A stretch of 64,000 nucleotides of DNA from Lepisosteus oculatus. Its lineage: Eukaryota; Chordata; Actinopteri; Semionotiformes; Lepisosteidae. The DNA is taken from assembly GCF_040954835.1 (NCBI RefSeq), contig NC_090709.1:40652975-40716974 (forward strand), in the 5' to 3' direction. The position numbers and the translations under genes are program-made. The notes under the pieces were generated by a model. It searched no databases and had not been told where the DNA came from. It worked only from the letters and a program-made list of their open reading frames with translations. Below, piece after piece: positions 24,916 through 46,448 of this stretch; position 1 is the first letter of the stretch; each line of letters begins with the position of its first letter.

Positions 24916-25263
24916 CTCTGTAGCAGATGAAGCTGAGCTTCTCCTCACAGTCACGGTTAGTCCAGTTCCCCCCTCTGTCCAGGGCTCCACAGTAGCTGTT
25001 AGTTGTGCACTGATGGTCTCCCCCTGTACCCCAGTTCTGATAATTAAGGGGTTGTCCATTCACCCAGAACCAGAACCCGAAGATCCGACTCTGCCGCAGG
25101 CCCAGCCAGACCAGAGTGGACTTAGCAGACTGGGCCTCTTCAGCAGCGTAGCTCTGCTCCTGGTGTGACTGGATATCCGCCAGGCCAGTGTGGTGAGTCT
25201 GACAGTGATCCAGGGCCTCAGCCCAGGACTTCTCCTCTCTCACCAGGACGAGCTTTCTGGTGT
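24916..25263 (-). CDS. CTLD3 exon
   Basis: The exon is 348 nt, acceptor tctctcttgcag, donor GTACTG. It is a short-form CTLD starting DTRKLVLVREEKSWAEALDH. It has no counterpart in the sister gene at 40-46 kb. Confidence 0.78.
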
Positions 25264-28200
25264 CTGCAAGAGAGAGACACAAAGAGTGGGAAACAAAAGA
25301 AATTTAGTGGCATTAAAAAGCTGTCTAAGACAAATAGGAAAACAGATCACCAAAAGGGCACCATCAGTTCTTCTCCAACCACTACAGTAAAAGATATGTG
25401 AGGAAGCTAGGTCAGGTGTGAGTGTCTGATGAGATCAGGTGAGAGTGTGTGATGAGGTCAGGTGAGGTGTGTGAGTGTGTGATGAGGGCAGGTGAGGTGT
25501 GTGAGTGTGTGATGAGCTCAGGTGAGGTGTGTGGGTGTGTGATGAGGGCAGGTGAGGTGTGTGAGTGTGTGATGAGCTCAGGTGAGGGGTGTGAGTGTGT
25601 GATGAGGGCAGGTGAGGTGTGTGGGTGTGTGATGAGGTCAGGTGAGGTGTGAGAGTGTGTGATGAGCTCAGGTGAGGTGTGTGATGAGGGCAGGTGAGGT
25701 GTGTGAGTGTGTGATGGGGTCAGGTGAGGTGTGTGAGTGTGTGATGAGCTCAGGTGAGGTGTGTGGGTGTGTGATGAGGGCAGGTGAGGTGTGTGGGTGT
25801 GTGATGAGGGCAGGTGAGGTGTGTGAGTGTGTGATGAGCTCAGGTGAGGGGTGTGAGTGTGTGATGAGGGCAGGTGAGGTGTGTGAGTGTGTGATGAGCT
25901 CAGGTGAGGTGTGTGGGTGTGTGATGAGGGCAGGTGAGGTGTGTGAGTGTGTGATGAGCTCAGGTGAGGGGTGTGAGTGTGTGATGAGGGCAGGTGAGGT
26001 GTGTGGGTGTGTGATGAGGTCAGGTGAGGTGTGAGAGTGTGTGATGAGCTCAGGTGAGGTGTGTGATGAGGGCAGGTGAGGTGTGTGAGTGTGTGATGGG
26101 GTCAGGTGAGGTGTGTGAGTGTGTGATGAGCTCAGGTGAGGTGTGTGGGTGTGTGATGAGGGCAGGTGAGGTGTGTGGGTGTGTGATGAGGTCAGGTGAG
26201 GTGTGAGAGTGTGTGATGAGCTCAGGTGAGGTGTGTGGGTGTGTGATGAGGGCAGGTGAGGTGTGTGAGTGTGTGATGAGCTCAGGTGAGGTGTGTGGGT
26301 GTGTGATGAGGTCAGGTGAGGTGTGTGATGAGGGCAGGTGAGGTGTGTGAGTGTGTGATGAGGGCAGGTGAGGTGTGTGGGTGTGTGATGAGGTCAGGTG
26401 AGGTGTGTGGGTGTGTGATGAGGGCAGGTGAGGTGTGTGGGTGTGTGATGAGGTCAGGTGAGGTGTGAGTGTGTGATGAGGTCAGGTGAGGTGTGTGGGT
26501 GTGTGATGAGGGCAGGTGAGGTGTGTGGGTGTGTGATGAGCTAAGGTGAGGTGTGTGGGTGTGTGATGAGGTCAGGTGAGGTGTGTGGGTGTGTGATGAG
26601 CTCAGGTGAGGTGTGTGGATGTGTGATGGGGTCAGGTGAGGTGTGTGAGTGTGTGATGAGGTCAGGTGAGGTGTGTGGGTGTGTGATGAGGTCAGGTGAG
26701 GTGTATGGATGTGTGATGAGGTCAGGTGAGGTGTGTGTGTGTGTGATGAGGTCAGGTGAGGTGTGTGATGAGCTCAGGTGAGGTGTATGATGAGGGCAGG
26801 TGAGGTGTGTGGGTGTGTGATGAGGTCAGGTGAGGTGTGTGAGTGTGTGATGAGGTCAGGTGAGGTGTGTGAGTGTGTGATGGGGTCAGGTGAGGTGTGT
26901 GAGTGTGTGATGAGGTCAGGTGAGGTGTGTGGGTGTGTGATGAGGTCAGGTGAGGTGTGTGGGTGTGTGATGAGGTCAGGTGAGGTGTGTGATGAGGTCA
27001 GGTGAGGTGTGTGGGTGTGTGATGAGGTCAGGTGAGGTGTGTGGGTGTGTGATGAGGTCAGGTGAGGTGTGTGATGAGGTCAGGTGAGGTGTGTGGGTGT
27101 GTGATGAGATCAGGTGAGGTGTGTGATGAGGTCAGGTGAGGTGTGTGATGAGATCAGGTGAGGTGTGGACAGGTGAGGGGCAGTGTGGTGGGTTCAGGTG
27201 AATCTCTCCCTGGGGAGGTCAGGGTATCTCACCATTATAGCAGATGAAGGGATATGCGGTGTTACAAGAAGCATCGTTCCAACCTCCTCTTTTATCCTGT
27301 AAGAAGAGAGATGTACAATTCTCCCTCCCATCATTGTCAGGCTGTTTTATACTCCAGCTGCGGAATGAGGAATTCCTCTGGTCCGACCACCTCCAGGCGT
27401 CCCTGAACAGACCGATCCACACGGACTCGTTCTTCATCACCTTCCTCACCTCCTCATTTTCACTCCTGCTCCTCACACTGACCAGGTCTGTGTGATTCAC
27501 TCTGCAGTACCTCTGGGCTGCTCTCCAGTCTAGTTTGTCCTCAACCAGGACGTATCTCTGTGTGGGACCACCGCTCTCTGTAAGAACACACAGTGAGGCT
27601 GTTACTGACAGCGCCGGGACCAGCAGAGCCTGGCTCTCCTCCTGTACCCCTCTGTGAACAGATCTCTCCTCACAAACCCCACGCACAGACAGAGGAGCTG
27701 AGGACACGGGAGCTGAAGGGACAGAGCCCAACAGTTCAACAGTCATCATATTGTATGTAAGATAATGAGTGTCATTTTTCTGAGATCGCTATGATATCAT
27801 CTTCTAAAAATGATGTATAAACAGCACAAAGTGAGGTTGAGTTTTTATCATCACTGATCTGATGCCCCCCTCCTGTGCGCTGCAGTGCTCACACAGGTGT
27901 GTCTGTGAAATCGGTCTTTAACCTGCTGTAGGGAAAGGCAGCCTTGCTAAACGAAAGGCTCACCTGCAGCGCCTGACAGAGAAACCTGCCCTGATGGCAC
28001 GACTCCTCAGCGCTGCACAGATCTCAAGACACCGGCAAGACACACAGCCCTGAGCAGACACTGGGCACCACTGGGGCCCACTGTCGATGACAGTGAGACG
28101 AGAGTGATGTCAGGGGCCCGCGAAGGGGTTCTGAGAGGTGCAGGGGGAATCGGGCCATGATAAAGACTTACGTTGGGGGCCCACGAAGGGGTTTTGAGAG

Positions 28201-29541
28201 GTGCAGGCTTTTATTTCTTATTCTCAGAGCTTCCCAGTCACCTACTTGGTATTTAGAAAACCCCATGAACAACTTCCCTGTTGCTCTCTGTGTATCTGTA
28301 AATCATCATGAAAATTATGCCTTATCTGTTTGTAGCAAACACTTAAAGTTAAGAAAAACAGATGAACAGATTTGCACACACCCGTTTTGCATGCATAGTT
28401 TTGATGTACAATATATTACTTGATATGTATTTTTATCAATACAATATATGTAGTACCGTTGTAACAGATGAAGGGCTTCTTTTCAGTCCAGTTGCTAGCT
28501 TCCCACTGTCCATCACTGTTCATTTCTGTACTGTTGCATGCAGTTGTTGGATCTGGGGAACCAGAGCTCCAGTTGCGGTATTCAGCCTCTCCATGCTTGT
28601 AGAAGCCCCACTTCGACAGGGACCAGTGCCACTGCTCTGGGTCTACTTTATACAGCCCGATCCAGGCCTGTTCAACAGAGTTGTCTGTTTCGCTGAGGAC
28701 TCTCCTCAGCTCTTCTGCATCGTCGATAGTGGCCAGGTCAGTGTGGTTCTCCCTGCAGTAGCGCTGTGCTGAGGTCCAGTTCAGCTTGTAACTGACAAAG
28801 TGATACTGACGCCTCTGACACTGAGAGAGGGAGCAGAGCCCTGGAGACACACAGAGACTGTCAGACAGAGCCCTGGGGACACACAGAGACTGTCAGACAG
28901 ACCCCTGGAGACACACAGGACACACAGAGACTGTCAGACAGAGCCCTGGAGACACACAGAGACTGTCAGACAGAGCCCTGGAGACACACAGGACACACAG
29001 AGACTGTGAGACAGAGCCCTAGAGACACACAGAGACTTTCAGACAGATATCTGGAGACACACAGGACACACAGAGACTGTCAGACATAGCTCTGGAGACA
29101 CACAGACTTTCAGACAGAGCTCTAGAGTCACAGAGACTGTCAGACAGAGTCCTGTAGACACAGAGACTGTCAGACAGAGCCCTGGAGACACACAGGACAC
29201 ACAGAGACTGTCAGACAGAGCCCTGGAGACACACAGGACACACAGAAACTGTCAGACAGAGCCCTGGAGACACAAAGGACACACAGAGACTGTCAGACAG
29301 ACACCTGGAGACACAAAAGAATCACAGAGACTGTCAGACAGACACCTAGAGACAGACAGAGACTGTCAGACAGACACCTGGAGACAGACAGAACACAGAG
29401 ACAGGAGACAGAAGTGATCTCTCCTGCGGCTGGACAGGGACAGGGGAGGACTGCGGCTGCTGTCCAGGGCACTGGGGTCAAGGTGCCGGCGATCAGACAC
29501 TGACCTGAGAGGATCAGGAGGACACAGGCTCTGCCCTGCAT
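24916..29541 (-). CDS. Tandem C-type-lectin gene (three CTLDs), 3' end not found
   Basis: Exons on the minus strand: 29505-29541 (leader MQGRACVLLILSG), 28457-28840 (CTLD1), 27233-27577 (CTLD2), 24916-25263 (CTLD3). All junctions are phase 1. CTLD1 is the long form (extra N-terminal CSLSQC). CTLD2 has WIGL, QPD and WND, the galactose-type Ca2+ site (family knowledge). CTLD3 has WLGL and a C-terminal NRDCEEKLSFICY but only QPL and WTN at the Ca2+ positions. This resembles fish macrophage-mannose-receptor-like lectins. After CTLD3 the intron enters the 51-bp minisatellite and I find no VNTR, TM or C-terminal exon. Reading through the donor gives a stop at 24866. It may be truncated, or use distant exons. 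Confidence 0.7.
25430..27170. repeat. About 30-bp minisatellite (caggtgaggtgtgtgggtgt)
   Basis: About 1.7 kb of units with gtgtgtgatgaggtcaggtg. The same family sits in introns of the sister gene at 40435-41365 and 43620-43835, so it predates the lectin duplication. Confidence 0.95.
27233..27577 (-). CDS. CTLD2 exon (QPD/WND)
   Basis: The exon is 345 nt, acceptor gtgttcttacag, donor GTGAGA. It has RYVLVEDKLDWRAAQRYC, WIGLF, QPDNDGRENC and GGWNDASC...PFICY. It keeps the acidic and amide residues expected for Ca2+ and sugar binding. Confidence 0.85.
27750..28456. other. Intron between CTLD1 and CTLD2
   Basis: Nearly identical to 44420-45063 in the sister gene, except for an extra tandem stretch of roughly 60 nt here (ggggcccacgaaggggtttt repeated once). 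Confidence 0.75.
28457..28840 (-). CDS. CTLD1 exon (long form, cysteine lost)
   Basis: The exon is 384 nt, acceptor gtgtctccag, donor GTACTA. It has SPD in place of QPD/EPN and WEA in place of WND. The Cys expected after that motif is Trp (SNWTEKKPFICY), so the second conserved disulfide cannot form normally. Probably not a Ca2+-dependent binder. Confidence 0.82.
28841..29405. repeat. About 32-bp minisatellite in the lectin leader intron
   Basis: gtcagacagagccctggaga units with cacacagagact. The sister gene has the same array, longer, at 45448-46300. Confidence 0.93.
29505..29541 (-). CDS. Leader exon of the three-CTLD lectin
   Basis: The exon is 37 nt, phase 1, G|GTCAGT donor. Hydrophobic core ACVLLILS. 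Confidence 0.7.
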
Positions 29542-33219: not shown

Positions 33220-34470
33220 ACTGGTCCTGTCTCAGGCAGCGGGTCCTGTCAGGAGCAGTGAGTCCTGTCTCAGGCAGCGGGTCCTGTCAGGAGCAGTGAG
33301 TCCTGTCTCAGGCAGTGGGTCCTGTCAGGAGCAGTGAGTCCTGTCTCAGGCAGCGGGTCCTGTCAGGAGCAGTGAGTCCTGTCTCAGGCAGAGGGTCCTG
33401 TCAGGAGCAGTGAGTCCTGTCTCAGGCAGCGGGTCCTGTCAGGAGCAGTGAGTCCTGTCTCAGGCAGCGGGTCCTGTCAGGAGCAGTGAGTCCTGTCTCA
33501 GGCAGCAGGTCCTGTCAGGAGCAGTGGGCCCTGTCTCAGGCAGCGAGTCCTGTCAGGAGCAGTGAGTCCTGTCTCAGGCAGTGGGTCCTGTCAGGAGCAG
33601 TGGGCCCTGTCTCAGGCAGCGGGTCCTGTCAGGAGCAGTGGGTGCTGTCTCAGGCAGCGGGTCCTGTCAGGAGCAGTGAGTCCTGTCTCAGGCAGTGGGT
33701 CCTGTCAGGAGCAGTGAGTCCTGTCTCAGGCAGCGGGTCCTGTCAGGAGCAGTGAGTCCTGTCTCAGGCAGAGGGTCCTGTCAGGAGCAGTGAGTCCTGT
33801 CTCAGGCAGCGAGTCCTGTCAGGAGCAGTGAGTCCTGTCTCAGGCAGCGGGTCCTGTCTCAGGCAGCAGGTCCTGTCAGGAGCAGTGAGTCCTGTCTCAG
33901 GCAGTGAGTCCTGTCAGGAGCAGTGAGTCCTGTCTCAGGCAGCAGGTCCTGTCAGGAGCAGTGAGTCCTGTCTCAGGCAGCGGGTCCTGTCAGGAGCAGT
34001 GAGTCCTGTCTCAGGCAACGGGTCCTGTCAGGAGCAGTGAGTCCTGTCTCAGGCAGCGGGTCCTGTCTCAGGCAGCAGGTCCTGTCAGGAGCAGTGAGTC
34101 CTGTCTCAGGCAGTGAGTCCTGTCAGGAGCAGCGAGTCCTGTCTCAGGCAGCGAGTCCTGTCAGGAACAGTGAGTCCTGTCTCAGGCAGCGGGTCCTGTC
34201 AGGTGCAGTGAGTCCTGTCTCAGGCAGCGGGTCCTGTCAGGAGCAGTGAGTCCTGTCTCAGGCAGTGGGTCCTGTCAGGAGCAGCGAGTCCTGTCTCAGG
34301 CAGCAAGTCCTGTCAGGAGCAGTGAGTCCTGTCTCAGGCAGTGGGTCCTGTCTCAGGCAGCAGGTCCTGTCAGGAGCATTGAGTCCTGTCAGGAGCAGTG
34401 GGTCCTGTCAGGAGCAGTGAGTCCTGTCAGGAGCAGTGAGTCCTGTCTCAGGCAGCAGGTCCTGTCACCC
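33220..34470 (+). repeat. About 38-bp minisatellite (cctgtctcaggcagcgggtc)
   Basis: Units alternate cctgtctcaggcag and gtcctgtcaggagcagtgag with local deletions. The same family in the same orientation lies at 38820-39852. Confidence 0.95.
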
Positions 34471-35120
34471 CACCCTGGAGAAGACTCAGCCCCTCTCTCC
34501 CTGCCCAGCGCCGAGGGGCTGCAGCAGCCCATCAGAGGGATTAAACACACCGCAGCCCGTTGCCGTGTAACTACTGAGAGGACGGGGAAATCAAAGCAGA
34601 GATTTCCTGGCCCCCCACAGCCCTCTGCTGACCTGATCGTCTCCACCCCCGCGGTCACGAGCGAAACCGATCAGTGGACAGTCACAGAATGTGTAATATT
34701 TCACCGCCCCTGGATTTTGAACCAGCAGCAGCAACAACGGGGAAGTACAGTGTTTTTGTACTTCCCCGTTTTTGTACTTCAGACTTTCTGCTACCGAAGG
34801 GCACTTGCCTATCCGTGGGGGAATTCTCCAACCCCTGAGACCTACAAAAGGGAGAAGAGCAGACTTACCTGCGGAGAGGCGGTGTGTTGCTGTGGACTGC
34901 AGTGTGAGTCTGTAGGGTTGGGGGGGCGATGTCATTCTGTACCTGCGAGGGGGGAGGGGGGGGGGCTGCTGGCACAGCCCAGCTGCGATGTCACTTCCTC
35001 TTCCTGCACCTCCCTCTCTCTGCCACACTGTATGCAAAACCTGACTCCTTCCTGGAACAAGGGGCCCTTGTGCAGCCTCAGCTCTGCTGCCGTTCTGGGT
35101 ATTTGCATATACACACACAC
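34471..35120. other. Intergenic, possible minus-strand 5' UTR exon
   Basis: A minus-strand gcag|gtaagt donor near 34868 could mark an untranslated first exon of the lectin gene at 29541. There is a strong hairpin at 34738-34768. No coding exon was recognised. Confidence 0.35.
34738..34768. other. Perfect 11-bp inverted repeat
   Basis: Arms cggggaagtac and gtacttccccg, loop of 9 nt. Function unknown. Confidence 0.7.
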
Positions 35121-36920
35121 TCTCACACACTCACACACCCTGGACAGGACACCAGTCCATCACAGGACACCCACACACACTCACACACCCTGGACAGGAC
35201 AGCAGTCCATCACAGGACACACACACTCACACACCCTGGACAGGACACCAGTCCATCACAGGACACACACACACACACACCCTGGACAGGACACCAGTCC
35301 ATCACAGGACACACACACACTCTCACACACCCTGGACAGGACACCAGTCCATCACAGGACACACACACATACACTCACACACCCTGGACAGGACACCAGT
35401 CCATCACAGGACACACACACACTCACACACCCTGGTCAGGACACCAGTCCATCACAGGACACACACACTCACACACCCTGGACAGGACACACACACACAC
35501 TCACACACCCTGGACAGGACACCAGTCCATCACAGGACACACACACACACACACCCTGGACAGGACACCAGTCCATCACAGGACACACACACACACTCAC
35601 ACACCCTGGACAGGACACCAGTCCATCACAGGACACACACACACACACCCTGGACAGGACACCAGTCCATCACAGGACACACACACACACTCACACACCC
35701 TGGACAGGACACCAGTCCATCACAGGACACACACACACACACCCTGGACAGGACACCAGTCCATCACAGGACACACACACACACACACCCTGGACAGGAC
35801 ACCAGTCCATCACAGGACACACACACACTCACACACCCTGGACAGGACACCAGTCCATCACAGGACACACACACACTCACACACCCTGGACAGGACACCA
35901 GACCATCACAGGACACACACACTCACACACCCTGGACAGGACACAAGTCCATCACAGGACACACACACACACACTCACACACCCTGGACAGGACACCAGT
36001 CCATCACAGGACACACACTCACACTCACACACCCTGGACAATACACTAGTCCATCACAGGACACACTCACACTCACACACCCTGGACAGGACACCAGTCC
36101 ATCACAGGACACACACACACACACTCACACACCCTGGACAGGACACCAGTCCATCACAGGACACACACACTCACACACCCTGGACAGGACACCAGTCCAT
36201 CACAGGACACACACACACACTCACACACCCTGGACAGGACACCAGTCCATCACAGGACACACAAACACTCACTCACACACCCTGGACAGGACACCAGTCC
36301 ATCACAGGACACACACACACACTCACACACACTGGACAGGACACCAGTCCATCACAGGACACACACACACTCACACACCCTGGACAGGACACAAGTCCAT
36401 CACAGGACACACACACACACTCACACACCCTGGACAGGACACCAGTCCATCACAGGACACACACACACACTCACACACCCTGGACAGGACACCAGTCCAT
36501 CACAGGACACACACACACACACTCACACACACCCTGGACAGGACACCAGTCCATCACAGGACACACACACACACACACCCTGGACAGGACACCAGTCCAT
36601 CACAGGACACACACACTCACACACCCTGGACAGGACACCAGTCCATCACAGGACACACACACACTCACACACACTGGACAGGACACCAGTCCATCACAGG
36701 ACACACACACACACTCACACACCCTGGACAGGACACCAGTCCATCACAGGACACACACACACACACTCACACACCCTGGACAGGACACCAGTCCATCACA
36801 TGACACACACACACACACTCACACACCCTGGACAGGACACCAGTCCATCACAGGACACACACACACACACTCACACACACCCTGGACAGGACACCAGTCC
36901 ATCACAGGACACACACAGTT
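35121..36920 (+). repeat. Minisatellite of ctggacaggacaccagtcca type
   Basis: About 37 units of about 48 bp with variable (ac)n and tcacac. Long His/Thr-rich frames here (up to 912 codons) are artefacts. Confidence 0.95.
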
Positions 36921-37045
36921 CTCCCAGAAGCCAGTTAACCCACCAGCCTGTCTCTGGACTGTGGGAGGAAAGCAGAGCAGCTGAACCCACGCAAACACAG
37001 GGGGAACGTGCAGACTCCACGCAGACAGCACCCCCGGTGTGCGAG
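36921..37045 (+). mobile_element. Right part of the dispersed fish element that parents the minisatellite
   Basis: ccagttaacccaccagcct, tggactgtgggaggaaagc, acccacgcaaacacaggg and tgcagactccacgcag form a block common in fish genomes and normally adjacent to the ctggacagg motif (from recall). Confidence 0.55.
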
Positions 37046-39868: not shown

Positions 39869-39964
39869 CTATTCCGCTGGGCAAAAAACCCGTCCGTCCG
39901 GCTGCTCTCTCCAGCGCAGGGTGTGGTTCCCCAGGAGACCCCGCTGGGCCAGCAGGACCTCCAT
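39869..39964 (-). CDS. C-terminal exon (LRWREQPDGRVF)
   Basis: The exon is 96 nt, phase 0, acceptor gtgtctgcag. It starts MEVLLAQRGLLGNHT and ends with TAG. A GTGAGT shortly after the stop could be a 3' UTR donor. Confidence 0.78.
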   Translation of the reverse strand: MEVLLAQRGLLGNHTLRWREQPDGRVFCPAE

Positions 39965-42900
39965 CTGCAGACACAGACGGACTTAGCACTGAGCGCCGGG
40001 CTGTGTGCTCACAGCTGTGCTCAGTGACTCAACACTCAGGCCTGCGGCACTGTACGACAGCTCACACGGCGCCAGCGTGCGCCTCAGACACAGCGCTACC
40101 AGCCCTGGATTCGAGCAACACGGGTTCGAGCTGTGAAGCATCGTGTCGCAGAGCAGATCTGCTCCGTCTCTCCTGCTGAGCCCCTGATCTGAATCCCTGA
40201 GGATCAGGGACAGGAAGGTTCCCTTTATAGCCCACCTGTCGACATCTGGAACAGTCCAGCTCGGGGTCTGAACCCCAGTCACACACCAGACACACTCAGC
40301 TCCCGCCTACCTGCTCCAGGAGTCTGTGCCTCGTCTCGGCGTCGTTCCCAATCGGCTCTTCGCTCCCGGCGATCTTCAGCCTCAGGATGGTCCTCTTCCT
40401 CGTCCGCGTCTGGGGATCTGGGGAGACAGGCGTCAGTGAGGTCAGGTGAGGTGTGTGATGAAGTCAGGTGAGGTGTGAGAGTGTGTGATGAGGTCAGGTG
40501 AGGTGTGTGATGAGGTCAGGTGAGGTGTGTGGGTGTGTGATGAGGTCAGGTGAGGTGTGTGGGTGTGTGATGAGGTCAGGTGAGGTGTGTGATGAGGGCA
40601 GGTGAGGTGTGTGGGTGTGTGATGAGGTCAGGTGAGGTGTGTGAGTGTGTGATGAGGTCAGGTGAGGTGTGTGGGTGTGTGATGAGGTCAGGTGAGGTGT
40701 GTGATGAGGTCAGGTGAGGTGTGTGATGAGGGCAGGTGAGGTGTGTGGGTGTGTGATGAGGTCAGGTGAGGTGTGTGAGTGTGTGATGAGGTCAGGTGAG
40801 GTGTGTGGGTGTGTGATGAGGTCAGGTGAGGTGTGTGGGTGTGATGAGGTCAGGTGAGGTGTGAGAGTGTGTGATGAGGTCAGGTGAGGTGTGTGGGTGT
40901 GTGATGAGGTCAGGTGAGGGTTAAGGGTGTGTGATGAGGTCAGGTGAGGAGTGTGAGTGTGTGATGAGGGCAGGTGAGGTGTGTGGGTGTGTGATGAGGT
41001 CAGGTGAGGGTTAAGGGTGTGTGATGAGGTCAGGTGAGGAGTGAGAGTGTGTGATGAGGGCAGGTGAGGTGTGTGAGTGTGTGATGAGGTCAGGTGAGGT
41101 GTGTGGGTGTGATGAGGTCAGGTGAGGTGTGAGAGTGTGTGATGAGGTCAGGTGAGGTGTGTGGGTGTGTGATGAGGTCAGGTGAGGGTTAAGGGTGTGT
41201 GATGAGGTCAGGTGAGGAGTGAGAGTGTGTGATGAGGTCAGGTGAGGTGTGTGGGTGTGTGATGAGGTCAGGTGAGGGTTAAGGGTGTGTGATGAGGTCA
41301 GGTGAGGAGTGAGAGTGTGTGATGAGGGCAGGTGAGGAGTGAGAGTGTGTGATGAGGGCAGGTGATCCTCCTGTCTGTAACAGACAAGTCTGTGTGAGAC
41401 TGTAGTGTACCTGAGCCCTGTGGACACCGTGACACTGCAGCTACAGCTATATAATCTCCAAGTCCTCTCATTGCTGGTGAAGTGATACTCACATGTAACA
41501 GCAGGGGGTGACACAGAGGCTGTGGGCGTGTCAGTAGATGGTGTTGTCTCAGGAGTTGTGGGGGTGTCAGTAGATGTTGTCTCAGGAGTTGTGGGGGTGT
41601 CAGTAGATGGTGGTGTCTCAGGGGTTGTGAGGGTGTCAGTAGATGGTGTTGTCTCAGGAGTTGTGGGGGTATCAGTAGATGGTGTTGTCTCAGGAGTTGT
41701 GGGGGTGTCAATAGATGGTGTTGTCTCAGGGGTTGTGGGGGTGTCAGTAGATGGTGTTGTCTCAGGGGTTGTGGGGGTGTCAGTAGATGTTGTCTCAGGA
41801 GTTGTGGGGGTGTCAGTAGATGGTGGTGTCTCAGGGGTTGTGAGGGTGTCAGTAGATGGTGTTGTCTCAGGAGTTGTGGGGGTATCAGTAGATGGTGTTG
41901 TCTCAGGAGTTGTGGGGGTGTCAGTAGATGGTGTTGTCTCAGGAGTTGTGGGGGTGTCAGTAGATGGTGTTGTCTCAGGGGTTGTGGGGGTGTCAGTAGA
42001 TGGTGTTGTCTCAGGGGTTGTGGGGGTGTCAGTAGATGGTGTTGTCTCAGGGGTTGTGGGGGTGTCAGTAGATGGTGGTATCTCAGGAGTTGTGGGGGTG
42101 TCAGTAGATGGTGTTGTCTCAGGGGTTGTGGGGGTGTCAGTAGATGGTGTTGTCTCAGGAGTTGTGGGGGTGTCAGTAGATGGTGTTGTCTCAGGGGTTG
42201 TGGGGGTGTCAGTAGATGGTGTTGTCTCAGGGGTTGTGGGGGTGTCAGTAGATGGTGTTGTCTCAGGCGTTGTGCGGGTGTCAGTAGATGGTGTTGTCTC
42301 AGGCGTTGTGCGGGTGTCAGTAGATGGTGTTGTCTCAGGGGTTGTGTGGGTGTCAGTAGATGTTGTCTCAGGAGTTGTGGGGGTGTCAGTAGATGTTGTC
42401 TCAGGGGTTGTGGGGGTGTCAGAAGATGGTGTTGTCTCAGGGGTTGTGGGGGTGTCAGTAGATGGTGTTGTCTCAGGAGTTGTGGGGGTGTCAGTAGATG
42501 GTGTTGTCTCAGGGGTTGTGGAGGTGTCAGTAGATGGTGTTGTCTCAGGGGTTGTGGGGGTGTCAGTAGATGGTGTTGTCTCAGGGGTTGTGGGGGTGTC
42601 AGTAGATGGTGTTGTCTCAGGGGTTGTGGGGGTGTCAGTAGATGTTGTCTCAGGAGTTGTGGGGGTGTCAGTAGATGTTGTCTCAGGGGTTGTGGGGGTG
42701 TCAGTAGATGTTGTCTCAGGAGTTGTGGGGGTGTCAGTAGATGTTGTCTCAGGGGTTGTGGGGGTGTCAGTAGATGGTGTTGTCTCAGGGGTTGTGGGGG
42801 TGTCAGTAGATGGTGTTGTCTCAGGGGTTGTGGGGGTGTCAGTAGATGGTGTTGTCTCAGGGGTTGTGGGGGTGTCAGTAGATGGTGTTGTCTCAGGGGT

Positions 42901-45900
42901 TGTGGGGGTGTCAGTAGATGGTGTTGTCTCAGGAGTTGTGGGGGTGTCAGTAGATGGTGTTGTCTCAGGGGTTGTGGGGGTGTCAGTAGATGGTGTTGTC
43001 TCAGGGGTTGTGGGGGTGTCAGTAGATGTTGTCTCAGGGGTTGTGGGGGTGTCAGTAGATGGTGTTGGCTCAGGGGTTGTGGGGGTGTCAGTAGATGGTG
43101 TTGGCTCAGGGGTTGTGGGGGTGTCAGTAGATGGTGTTGTCTCAGGGGTTGTGGGGGTGTCAGTAGATGGTGTTGTCTCAGGGGTTGTGGGGGTGTCAGT
43201 AGATGTTGTCTCAGGGGTTGTGGGGGTGTCAGTAGATGGTGTTGGCTCAGGGGTTGTGGGGGTGTCAGTAGATGGTGTTGGCTCAGGGGTTGTGGGGGTG
43301 TCAGTAGATGGTGTTGTCTCAGGGGTTGTGGGGGTGTCAGTAGATGGTGTTGTCTCAGGGGTTGTGGGGGTGTCAGTAGATGGTGTCTCAGGGGTTGTGG
43401 GGGTGTCAGTAGATGGTGTCTCAGGGGTTGTGGGGGTGTCAGTAGATGGTGTTGTCTCAGGGGTTGTGGGGGTGTCAGTAGATGGTGTTGTCTCAGGGGT
43501 TGTGGGGGTGTCAGTAGATGGTGTCTCAGTATTGTAGTTCCCTGTAAGAAGAAACGGTGAGAAAACTCATAATTTTCGTAGTAGATTCAGTCTTTGGGAT
43601 TCATTCTAATTTACTTAACTGTGATGAGGTCAGGTGAGGTGTGTGGGTGTGTGATGAGGTCATGTGAGGTGTGTGGGTGTGTGATGAGGTCAGGTGAGGT
43701 GTGTGGGTGAGTGATGAGGGCAGGTGAGGTGTGTGGGTGTGTGATGAGGTCAGGTGAGGTGTGTGAGTGTGTGATGAGATCAGGTGAGGTGTGTGATGAG
43801 GTCAGGTGAGGTGTGTGATGAGATCAGATGAGGTGTGGACAGGTGAGGGGCAGTGTGGTGGGTTCAGGTGAATCTCTCCCTGGGGAGGTCAGGGTATCTC
43901 ACCATTATAGCAGATGAAGGGATATGCGTCGTTACAAGAAGCATCGTTCCAACCTCCTCTTTTAGTATATAAGAACAGAGATCCACACTTCTCAATGCCA
44001 CCACTGTCAGGCTGTTCTATACTCCAGTTGCGGAATGCGGAATTCCTCTGGTCCGACCACCTCCAGGCGTCCCTGAACAGACCGATCCACACGGACTCGT
44101 TCTTCATCACCTTCCTGACCTCCTCATTTTCACTCCTGCTCCTCACACTGACCAGGTCTGTGTGATTCACTCTGCAGTACCTCTGGGCTGCTCTCCAGTC
44201 TAGTTTGTCCTCAACCAGGACGTATCTCTGTGTGGGACCACCGCTCTCTGTAAGAACACACAGTGAGGCTGTTACTGACAGCGCTGGGACCAGCAGAGCC
44301 TGGCTCTCCTCCTGTACCCCTCTGTGAACAGATCTGTCCTCACAAACCCCACGCACAGACAGAGGAGCTGAGGACACGGGAGCTGAAGGGACAGAGCCCA
44401 ACAGTTCAACAGTCATCATATTGTATGTAAGATAATGAGTGTCATTTTTCTGAGATCGCTATGATATCATCTTCTAAAAATGATGTATAAACAGCACAAA
44501 GTGAGGTTGAGTTTTTATCATCACTGATCTGATGCCCCCCTCCTGTGCGCTGCAGTGCTCACACAGGTGTGTCTGTGAAATCGGTCTTTAACCTGCTGTA
44601 GGGAAAGGCAGCCTTGCTAAACGAAAGGCTCACCTGCAGCGCCTGACAGAGAAACCTGCCCTGATGGCACGACTCCTCAGCGCTGCACAGATCTCAAGAT
44701 ACCAGCAAGACACACAGCCCTGAGCAGACACTGGGCACCACTGGGGCCCACTGTCGATTACAGTGAGACGAGAGTGATGTCAGGGGCCCGCGAAGGGGTT
44801 CTGAGAGGTGCAGGCTTTTATTTCTTATTCTCAGAGCTTCCCAGTCACCTACTTGGTATTTAGAAAACCCCATGAACAACTTCCCTGTTGCTCTCTGTGT
44901 ATCTGTAAATCATCATGAAAATTATGCCTTATCTGTTTGTAGCAAACACTTAAAGTTAAGAAAAACAGATGAACAGATTTGCACACACCCGTTTTGCATG
45001 CATAGTTTTGATGTACAATATATTACTTGATATGTATTTTTATCAATACAATATATGTAGTACCGTTGTAACAGATGAAGGGCTTCTTTTCAGTCCAGTT
45101 GCTAGCTTCCCACTGTCCATCACTGTTCATTTCTGTACTGTTGCATGCAGTTGTTGGATCTGGGGAACCAGAGCTCCAGTTGCGGTATTCAGCCTCTCCA
45201 TGCTTGTAGAAGCCCCACTTCGACAGGGACCAGTGCCACTGCTCTGGGTCTACTTTATACAGCCCGATCCAGGCCTGATCAACAGAGATGTCTGTTTCGC
45301 TGAGGAGTCTCCTCAGCTCTTCTGCATCGTCGAAGGTGGCCAGGTCAGTGTGTTTCTCCCTGCAGTAGCGCTGTGCTGAGGTCCAGTTCAGTGGTGAGCT
45401 GACAAAGTGATACTGACGCCTCTGACACTGAGAGAGGGAGCAGAGCCCTGGAGACACACAGAGACTGTCAGACAGAGCTCTGGAGACACACAGAGACTGT
45501 CAGACAGAGCCCTGGAGACACACAGGACACACAGAGACTGTCAGACAGAGCCCTGGAGACACACAGGACACACAGAGACTGTCAGACAGAGCCCTGGAGA
45601 CACACAGAGACTGTCAGACAGAGCCCTGGAGACACACAGAGACTGTCAGACAGAGCCCTGGGGACACACAGAGACTGTCAGACAGAGCCCTGGAGACACA
45701 CAGAGACTGTCAGACAGAGCTCTGGAGACACACAGAGACTGTCAGACAGAGCCCTGGGGACACACAGAGACTGTCAGACAGAGCCCTGGAGACACACAGA
45801 GACTGTCAGACAGAGCCCTGGAGACACACAGGACACACAGAGACTGTCAGACAGAGCCCTGGAGACACACAGAGACTGTCAGACAGAGCCCTGGGGACAC

Positions 45901-46448
45901 ACAGAGGCTGTCAGACAGAGCCCTGGAGACACACAAAGACTGTGAGACAGAGCCCTGGAGACACACAGAGACTGTGAGACAGAGCCCTGGAGACACACAG
46001 AGACTGTCAGACAGAGCCCTGGAGACACACAGAGACTGTCAGACAGAGCCCTGGAGACACACAGAGACTGTCAGACAGAGCTCTGGAGACACACAGGACA
46101 CACAGAGACTGTCAGACAGAGCCCTGGAGACACACAGAGACTGTGAGACAGAGCCCTGGAGACACACAGGACACAAAGACTGTCAGACAGAGCCCTGGAG
46201 ACACAGAGACTGTCAGACAGAGCTCTGGAGACACACAGGACACACAGAGACTGTCAGACAGAGCTCTGGAGACACACAGAACACACAGAGAATGTCAGAC
46301 AGAGCCCACATTTGATGCTGCTGCTCTCTGTCTCCTCTGTACAGTCTGGCCAGGCCTGGAGAACTACTGTCTGCATCTGAGGACACATTCAGTCACATGA
46401 GAAATACTGACCTGAAAGAAGCAGGGTGAGAATCACCCTCCCCTCCAT
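39869..46448 (-). CDS. Secreted two-CTLD lectin with mucin-like VNTR, six exons
   Basis: Exons on the minus strand: 46412-46448 (leader MEGRVILTLLLSG), 45064-45447 (CTLD1), 43903-44247 (CTLD2, QPD and WND), 41493-43541 (mucin VNTR), 40311-40417, 39869-39964 (stop TAG). Phases are 1,1,1,1,0 and the sum is 3018 nt, 1005 aa. The VNTR encodes about 57 repeats of PSTDTPTTPETT, expected to be densely O-glycosylated. The C-terminus reads LRWREQPDGRVFCPAE, matching, from recall, the LRWRxQPDGxVF end of fish macrophage-mannose-receptor-like lectins that also lack a TM helix. No hydrophobic span follows the VNTR, so secretion is likely. CTLD2 keeps the Ca2+ site; CTLD1 does not. Confidence 0.8.
39965..40310. 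other. Intron 5 of the mucin lectin
   Basis: About 350 nt unique sequence, no further exon seen. Confidence 0.5.
40311..40417 (-). CDS. Penultimate exon of the mucin lectin
   Basis: The exon is 107 nt, acceptor gtctccccag, donor GTAGGC, phase 1 in and 0 out. It encodes RTRKRTILRLKIAGSEEPIG and an ETRHRLLEQ helix. It is basic and charged, not a membrane span. Confidence 0.75.
40435..41365. repeat. About 30-bp minisatellite in intron 4 of the mucin lectin
   Basis: Same family as 25430-27170, with a local variant (gagggttaagggtgtgtgat). Confidence 0.95.
41493..43541 (-). CDS. Mucin-like VNTR exon, 2049 nt
   Basis: Starts after gtttcttcttacag with GNYNTETPSTD (the G of CTLD2 completes Gly), ends ...PTASVSPPAVT before T|GTGAGT. 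Units are 36 or 33 nt, every change being a multiple of three, and every variant unit I checked stays open (SSD, SID, TLTTP, EPT, TRTTP). It lacks Met codons, so ATG-based ORF calling misses it. Confidence 0.85.
43620..43835. repeat. Short minisatellite in intron 3 of the mucin lectin
   Basis: About 7 units of the gatgaggtcaggtgaggtgt family. Confidence 0.93.
43903..44247 (-). CDS. CTLD2 exon of the mucin lectin
   Basis: The exon is 345 nt, identical in boundaries to 27233-27577. QPDSGGIEKC replaces QPDNDGRENC. WNDASC and PFICY are conserved. Confidence 0.85.
45064..45447 (-). CDS. CTLD1 exon of the mucin lectin
   Basis: The exon is 384 nt and nearly identical to 28457-28840, including the Cys-to-Trp change. 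Differences cluster in the N-terminal half (SSPLNW, EKHTDLATFDD). Confidence 0.83.
45448..46300. repeat. About 32-bp minisatellite in the mucin lectin leader intron
   Basis: Expanded counterpart of 28841-29405. The 302-codon frame across it is an artefact. Confidence 0.93.
46412..46448 (-). CDS. Leader exon of the mucin lectin
   Basis: The exon is 37 nt, phase 1, G|GTCAGT donor. Core VILTLLLS. Confidence 0.72.

Follow-up and report, generated by a model that had tools for sequence, protein, structure and literature searches.

A minisatellite exon encoding a putative mucin-like stalk in a predicted soluble dual-CTLD lectin gene of Lepisosteus oculatus

Introduction

Mucins of the MUC1 type carry polymorphic repeats rich in proline, threonine and serine (PTS) that derive from an in-frame minisatellite, and gel-forming mucins possess VWD and cysteine-rich domains for assembly. 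Among C-type lectins, CLEC4M is membrane bound and has a helical neck that tetramerises. Here, we analyzed a 64,000-nucleotide (nt) stretch of the Lepisosteus oculatus genome (C14:40652975-40716974; hereafter the window) and describe gene B, a lectin gene with two C-type lectin-like domains (CTLDs) whose fourth exon is a minisatellite that probably encodes a mucin-like stalk. Like the MUC1-type mucins, gene B has an in-frame PTS minisatellite, but its model has no transmembrane segment, it carries two CTLDs instead, and Pfam matched only Lectin_C in exons 2 to 6, with no match to VWD or SEA.

The soluble dual- and triple-CTLD proteins of fish are known as group F1 of Fugu, which is described as having two or three CTLDs, being soluble, and retaining Ca/carbohydrate residues in at least one CTLD (PMC514892). 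Gene B with two CTLDs and its paralogue in the window, gene A, with three resemble this group, and the gene B protein is predicted to be soluble, with a Ca/carbohydrate motif in its second CTLD (CTLD2); the match is one of features rather than of sequence. Gene B differs in adding a 682-residue PTS domain, and the word "mucin" does not occur in the main text of the Fugu paper. A title cited in a review (PMC9316650) tells of a putative dual-CTLD lectin gene that is upregulated in milkfish liver after Aeromonas exposure.

Repeats within single exons have been described for two other lectin-like proteins. In CLEC4M (DC-SIGNR), a 69-bp unit in exon 4 forms the neck variable number tandem repeat (VNTR), and its copy number sets the length of the spacer (PMC3261175). 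Like CLEC4M in that source, gene B belongs to the C-type lectins and contains a tandem repeat with a unit length divisible by 3, but it is predicted to be secreted, it has a PTS-rich spacer of 57 units, and it is represented by one haplotype only. The CS1 region of aggrecan, a protein that has a lectin-like domain too, consists of repeats in one large exon, numbering from 13 to 33 in humans (PMC4648834). Gene B likewise combines tandem repeats in one large exon with a lectin domain; however, CS1 is described there as 19-residue Ser-Gly repeats for chondroitin sulphate in a protein with EGF-like and CRP-like domains, whereas the gene B domain has no Gly and the protein matched only Lectin_C in Pfam. 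In a literature search of one open-access library, we met neither a mucin- or repeat-bearing C-type lectin like gene B nor the string PTTPETT. A mucin minisatellite exon inside a soluble dual-CTLD lectin would be a new combination in a lectin family that is itself known.

Gene B carries an in-frame minisatellite exon

Gene B was modeled from six minus-strand exons (Table 1), whose GT-AG introns and consistent phases yield a single open frame of 1,005 residues. The original prediction had taken the minisatellite at 41493 to 43541 for a coding exon, and the intact six-exon frame, the splice borders and the in-frame insertions and deletions (indels) agree with it; at the level of sequence, this segment is confirmed as an exon-like coding block. 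It measures 2,049 nt and comprises 682 complete codons and, split across the borders, 2 + 1 further bases, with no stop and, as had been noticed before, no Met in any of the codons. Within the block, Tandem Repeats Finder (TRF) reported an array at 41514-43524 with a period of 36, 56.9 copies and 95% matches.

When the units were read without alignment, we counted the 57 that had been estimated, all of them with a length divisible by 3: 44 of 36 nt, 12 of 33 nt and 1 of 39 nt, with a degenerate last unit. Among the unit types are DTPTTPETTPST (31/57) and DTPTTPETTST (10/57). The encoded domain is composed of T (330), P (163), S (61), D (57) and E (57), with 14 other residues; 668 of its 682 residues are thus T, P, S, D or E. 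Its 391 Ser/Thr amount to 57% and P to 24%, and the domain makes up 68% of the protein. Mucin character by composition was checked with the criteria given in PMC2515642: S+T reach 43% of the whole gene B protein, which contains 57 repeats of 11-12 residues. Neither the mucin exon nor the tail matched any family in Pfam. Block duplication is indicated in the unit order, where the longest repeated run covers 7 units, a length that was reached by 18 of 2,000 shuffles.

The borders of exon 4 read TTCTTCTTACAG/GG on the acceptor side, which is pyrimidine-rich, and ACAT/GTGAGTAT on the donor side, with GTGAGT as the donor (slashes mark the exon ends). The exon is in phase 1 at both ends, as predicted, and this agrees with both neighbors: the CTLD2 exon has its donor in phase 1, and exon 5 its acceptor. 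Features of a protein-coding VNTR are present, namely a unit divisible by 3 inside an exon and in-frame variants. When the assembly was searched with the CTLD1-CTLD2 stretch, neither a second haplotype nor a second copy of the locus emerged.

We found that the two CTLDs of gene B differ in their motifs: CTLD1 does not keep the Ca/sugar motif and has a Trp in place of one CTLD cysteine, whereas CTLD2 keeps QPD...EKC...WND, whose QPD, E and WND residues we take to be a galactose-type calcium site. The solved structures best matching CTLD2 are those of the phospholipase A2 receptor, LY75 and mannose receptor 2. A structure model of CTLD2 built from five sequences was poor (mean pLDDT, a per-residue confidence score, 63.8) and was set aside. 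In a hydropathy scan of the model, the six highest-scoring 11- and 19-residue segments all start at residues 1-8, with the best lying within residues 1-24. Hydrophobic segments being confined to the N terminus, the gene B protein is predicted to be secreted, with a signal peptide and no transmembrane segment in the model. The idea of a mucin stalk in a soluble lectin is accordingly supported as the best fit, with two CTLDs in Pfam and a hydrophobic stretch solely at the signal peptide.

Taken as a whole, gene B is very probably a fish soluble dual-CTLD lectin in which a symmetric phase 1-1 exon of PTS repeats lies between CTLD2 and the tail and encodes what would be an O-glycosylated stalk of a secreted protein, with a length set by the number of units. 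Many of the 391 Ser/Thr would bear O-glycans and give an extended rod, perhaps 150 nm long at the rise per residue that is typical of mucins. The stalk would keep the CTLD head apart from the C-terminal tail, and CTLD2 may bind a galactose-type sugar in a calcium-dependent manner. Repeat number would shift when whole units of 36 or 33 nt are gained or lost through exchange or slippage, and the resulting length alleles would remain in frame and change the length of the stalk. If this is true, a secreted lectin would bring its own long mucin rod, the length of which is set by a minisatellite, and such a gene could escape or be truncated by ordinary annotation and short-read assembly.

Comparison with other arrays of the window

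Tandem arrays occupy about 54% of the window (TRF output, hand-merged list), and exon 4 was compared with them: with 28 other arrays for open frames, with 18 others for indels, and, for splice borders, among 29 arrays on 2 strands. Sites resembling an acceptor and a donor within 60 bp, with an open frame between them, occurred in 1 of the 58 array-strands, that of exon 4 alone, by criteria fixed after exon 4 had been seen. Indels divisible by 3 accounted for 12/12 in the exon 4 array (2/2 distinct) versus 7/107 (7/46 distinct) in the 18 other arrays when affine gaps were used. Splice context helps most in setting exon 4 apart, and gene context and in-frame indels also discriminate. Incoming phases 0 and 1 are both open for exon 4, and phase 1 is imposed by the neighboring exons.

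Several results weigh against a coding role for the array. Four of the six frames are open across it, so openness does not choose the frame, and 9 of the 28 other arrays are fully open in at least one frame, over shorter lengths (115-597 versus 669-670 codons). Substitutions among units look neutral: among the 44 units of 36 nt, to which the count was restricted, the 12 distinct types comprised 3 synonymous and 9 nonsynonymous changes and no stop, in near agreement with the ratio of 32:75:1 among all changes that could occur, and no signal of purifying selection among units was seen in the substitution types. There are just two distinct indel types, and against the background of 7/46, both would be in frame by chance with a probability of about 0.02. 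With linear gaps, in-frame indels drop to 10/16 in the exon 4 array and stand at 9/164 elsewhere; the 10/16 is an effect of the alignment, which broke up two 3-nt deletions into gaps of one base. Finally, constraint on the tail is weak: exons 5 and 6 together gave a nonsynonymous rate (dN) of 0.100-0.123 with a synonymous rate (dS) of about 0.16, and in exon 5 alone dN (0.152-0.183) exceeds dS (0.132).

The length of an open reading frame (ORF) was rejected as coding evidence, since 9 of the 28 other arrays have at least one frame that is open throughout, and since the longest frame without a stop in the window lies over an array, too. That frame (936 codons; 34174-36984, plus strand) covers another minisatellite, with CCTGGACAGGACACCAGTCCATCACAGG units, and is a trap for ORF-based annotation. 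As to the 671-codon frame reported on the strand opposite to exon 4, it does exist (41522-43537), but only from a GTG start.

Table 1. Coordinates of gene B, gene A and minisatellites in the window
Feature	Position	Strand	Remarks
Gene B exon 1, start of signal peptide (MEGRVILTLLLSG)	46412..46448	-	donor phase 1; among the most hydrophobic segments of the model
Gene B exon 2, CTLD1 (PF00059)	45064..45447	-	Pfam E 6.5e-14
Gene B exon 3, CTLD2 (PF00059)	43903..44247	-	Pfam E 5.5e-19; donor phase 1
Gene B exon 4, mucin-like	41493..43541	-	57 units of PSTDTPTTPETT type; symmetric phase 1-1
Gene B exon 5, first tail exon (PQTRTRKRTILRLKIAGS...LLEQ)	40311..40417	-	homologous tails in L025 and L026
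Gene B exon 6, second tail exon (MEVLLAQRGLLGNHTLRWREQPDGRVFCPAE, then stop)	39869..39964	-	
Paralogue gene A	24916..29541	-	exons 29505-29541, 28457-28840 (CTLD1), 27233-27577 (CTLD2), 24916-25263 (CTLD3)
Minisatellite, 30-bp (and 22-bp)	43620..43837		intron 3 of gene B, before the mucin exon; TRF
Minisatellite, 30-bp, same as in intron 3	40446..41365		intron 4 of gene B, after the mucin exon; TRF
Minisatellite, 32-bp	45441..46280		intron 1 of gene B; homology to gene A ends here
Minisatellite, 30-bp, uninterrupted	25439..27126		gene A intron 3; same kind as both arrays flanking the gene B mucin exon

Alternative explanations

The leading rival is that exon 4 is a cassette exon which most transcripts skip, so that the main product would be a dual-CTLD lectin of the ordinary kind, about 320 residues long, and the mucin form a minor one. 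This possibility is compatible with the sequence, and we regard it as real though doubtful. The phase 1-1 borders would preserve the frame upon skipping, and for that reason the original prediction erred in offering exon skipping as a disproof: transcripts skipping exon 4 would point to a cassette exon and would not disprove the coding reading. Furthermore, no PTS-rich stretch between the last CTLD and the tail appeared in scans of the seven genes in which both were found (L025, L026, L027, L029, L039, L040 and L042). A frequently skipped exon is, however, less expected with the consensus-like acceptor and donor and with unit lengths divisible by 3 throughout the array.

The relatives were drawn from comparisons against the 1.2-Gb assembly of 813 contigs: 150 of 413 candidate places were scored in a Lectin_C profile search of the genome, and 24 stretches were taken, comprising 22 around Lectin_C places and 2 beside the window. 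Across the window and the first 20 of these stretches, a scan for 40-residue segments with at least 65% P/T/S was positive for gene B alone. With looser P/T/S settings over all 42 loci, other places emerged too, and these were repeats, out-of-frame CTLD sequence and one stretch in L035. In the latter (L035:3080, on C4), the 73% P/T/S stretch stands directly before a CTLD of another lectin gene and is a candidate only. At L025, the fifth CTLD is joined to the tail exon through a phase 1 junction as well, so the mucin exon of gene B represents an extra symmetric exon.

It is also conceivable, albeit unlikely, that the lectin binds itself, CTLD2 with its galactose-type motif recognizing the O-glycans on the stalks of other molecules to build a cross-linked mesh. 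The presence of QPD...E...WND in CTLD2 beside a Ser/Thr-dense domain is in line with this, and a lone Cys could add dimers, but the ligand specificity is suggested by the motif. This Cys is residue 1002 in the C terminus of gene B, which reads RVFCPAE (39869-39964) versus RVFYPAE in L025 and L026, and it could serve as a dimer link.

We consider it very unlikely that the array belongs to an intron, as the neighboring minisatellites do, and that its splice borders arose by accident. The high share of arrays in the window, the nine other arrays with a fully open frame and the neutral substitution pattern would all agree with such an origin. They are countered by the single array-strand of 58 that combines acceptor, donor and open frame, in a phase fitting both neighboring exons, and by a coding reading that consists almost wholly of T, P, S, D and E. 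A glycosaminoglycan-carrying region in place of a mucin, proposed by likeness to aggrecan, which is described as having a repeat exon and a lectin-like domain as well (PMC4648834), is already disfavored and hardly credible, since Gly is absent from the 682-residue domain and hence no Ser-Gly attachment site exists.

Gene A and the exchange of exon modules

Gene A has a third CTLD where gene B has the mucin exon, and PF00059 matched three exons of gene A and two of gene B. A tblastn search of the window with the gene B tail, including positions 1-24915, found no tail for gene A, which may have been lost, be too diverged or lie beyond the window. The two genes are identical at 372/384 positions in CTLD1, at 326/345 in CTLD2 and at 811/816 aligned bases (99.4%) in intron 2, with 63 gap columns. 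No homology between them was detected upstream of the intron 1 array, the best match being 20 bp (E 0.091).

The differences between gene A and gene B cluster at the sugar-binding end of CTLD2 (43929-44038 versus 27233-27577). In the last 44 codons of this domain we counted 17 differences in 132 bp, 15 of which are nonsynonymous, against 5 differences in 816 bp of intron 2 (Fisher p 1.5e-11, for a segment picked after looking). Either positive selection or a conversion tract could account for this divergence. A similar pattern is known from zebrafish NLR-B30.2, an immune family described as showing gene conversion that differs among gene parts and diversity concentrated in the recognition module (PMC4852459); the proteins are unrelated, and here the pattern comes from one gene pair only.

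The boundaries of the mosaic homology fall in minisatellites, a coincidence that is weak evidence, because arrays make up 1,980 of the 3,562 bases in the introns of gene B. We tentatively propose, as an idea that we think rather unlikely, that the cluster swaps exon modules across intronic minisatellites. A shared CTLD1-CTLD2 head would be joined to CTLD3 in gene A or to a mucin stalk and tail in gene B, the homology would end within the arrays, and CTLD2 would be diversified at its sugar-binding end. If so, stalk length and head specificity would vary independently. With this pair, it can be tested whether domains are replaced at intronic repeats within a lectin gene cluster.

Related lectin loci in the genome

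Sequences related to gene B were found elsewhere in the assembly. Its tail region is 87-97% identical to L025 and L026 in aligned pieces, which include most of intron 5. Pieces of its CTLD exons (at least 60 bp) are 74-82% identical to the fetched paralogues other than gene A, and 67-88% identical genome-wide. A search of a phage collection with one tail exon gave no match, as expected for an animal gene.

Among the matches listed for Lectin_C, some have near-identical scores and lie at megabase spacing on C14, e.g., at 4.48, 6.54, 9.54, 13.17, 22.12, 24.60 and 32.41 Mb, which suggests a recent dispersal of a dual-CTLD gene along C14. At L031:2921-4993 and L032:4693-5229, CTLD exons are followed by SRCR (PF00530) domains on the same strand, indicative of a possible CTLD-SRCR gene. 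In addition, a piece of intron 4 of gene B (41400-41442) matches, over 37-43 bp at 91-95% identity, sequences in L019 and L020 that precede the first CTLD by about 240 bases.

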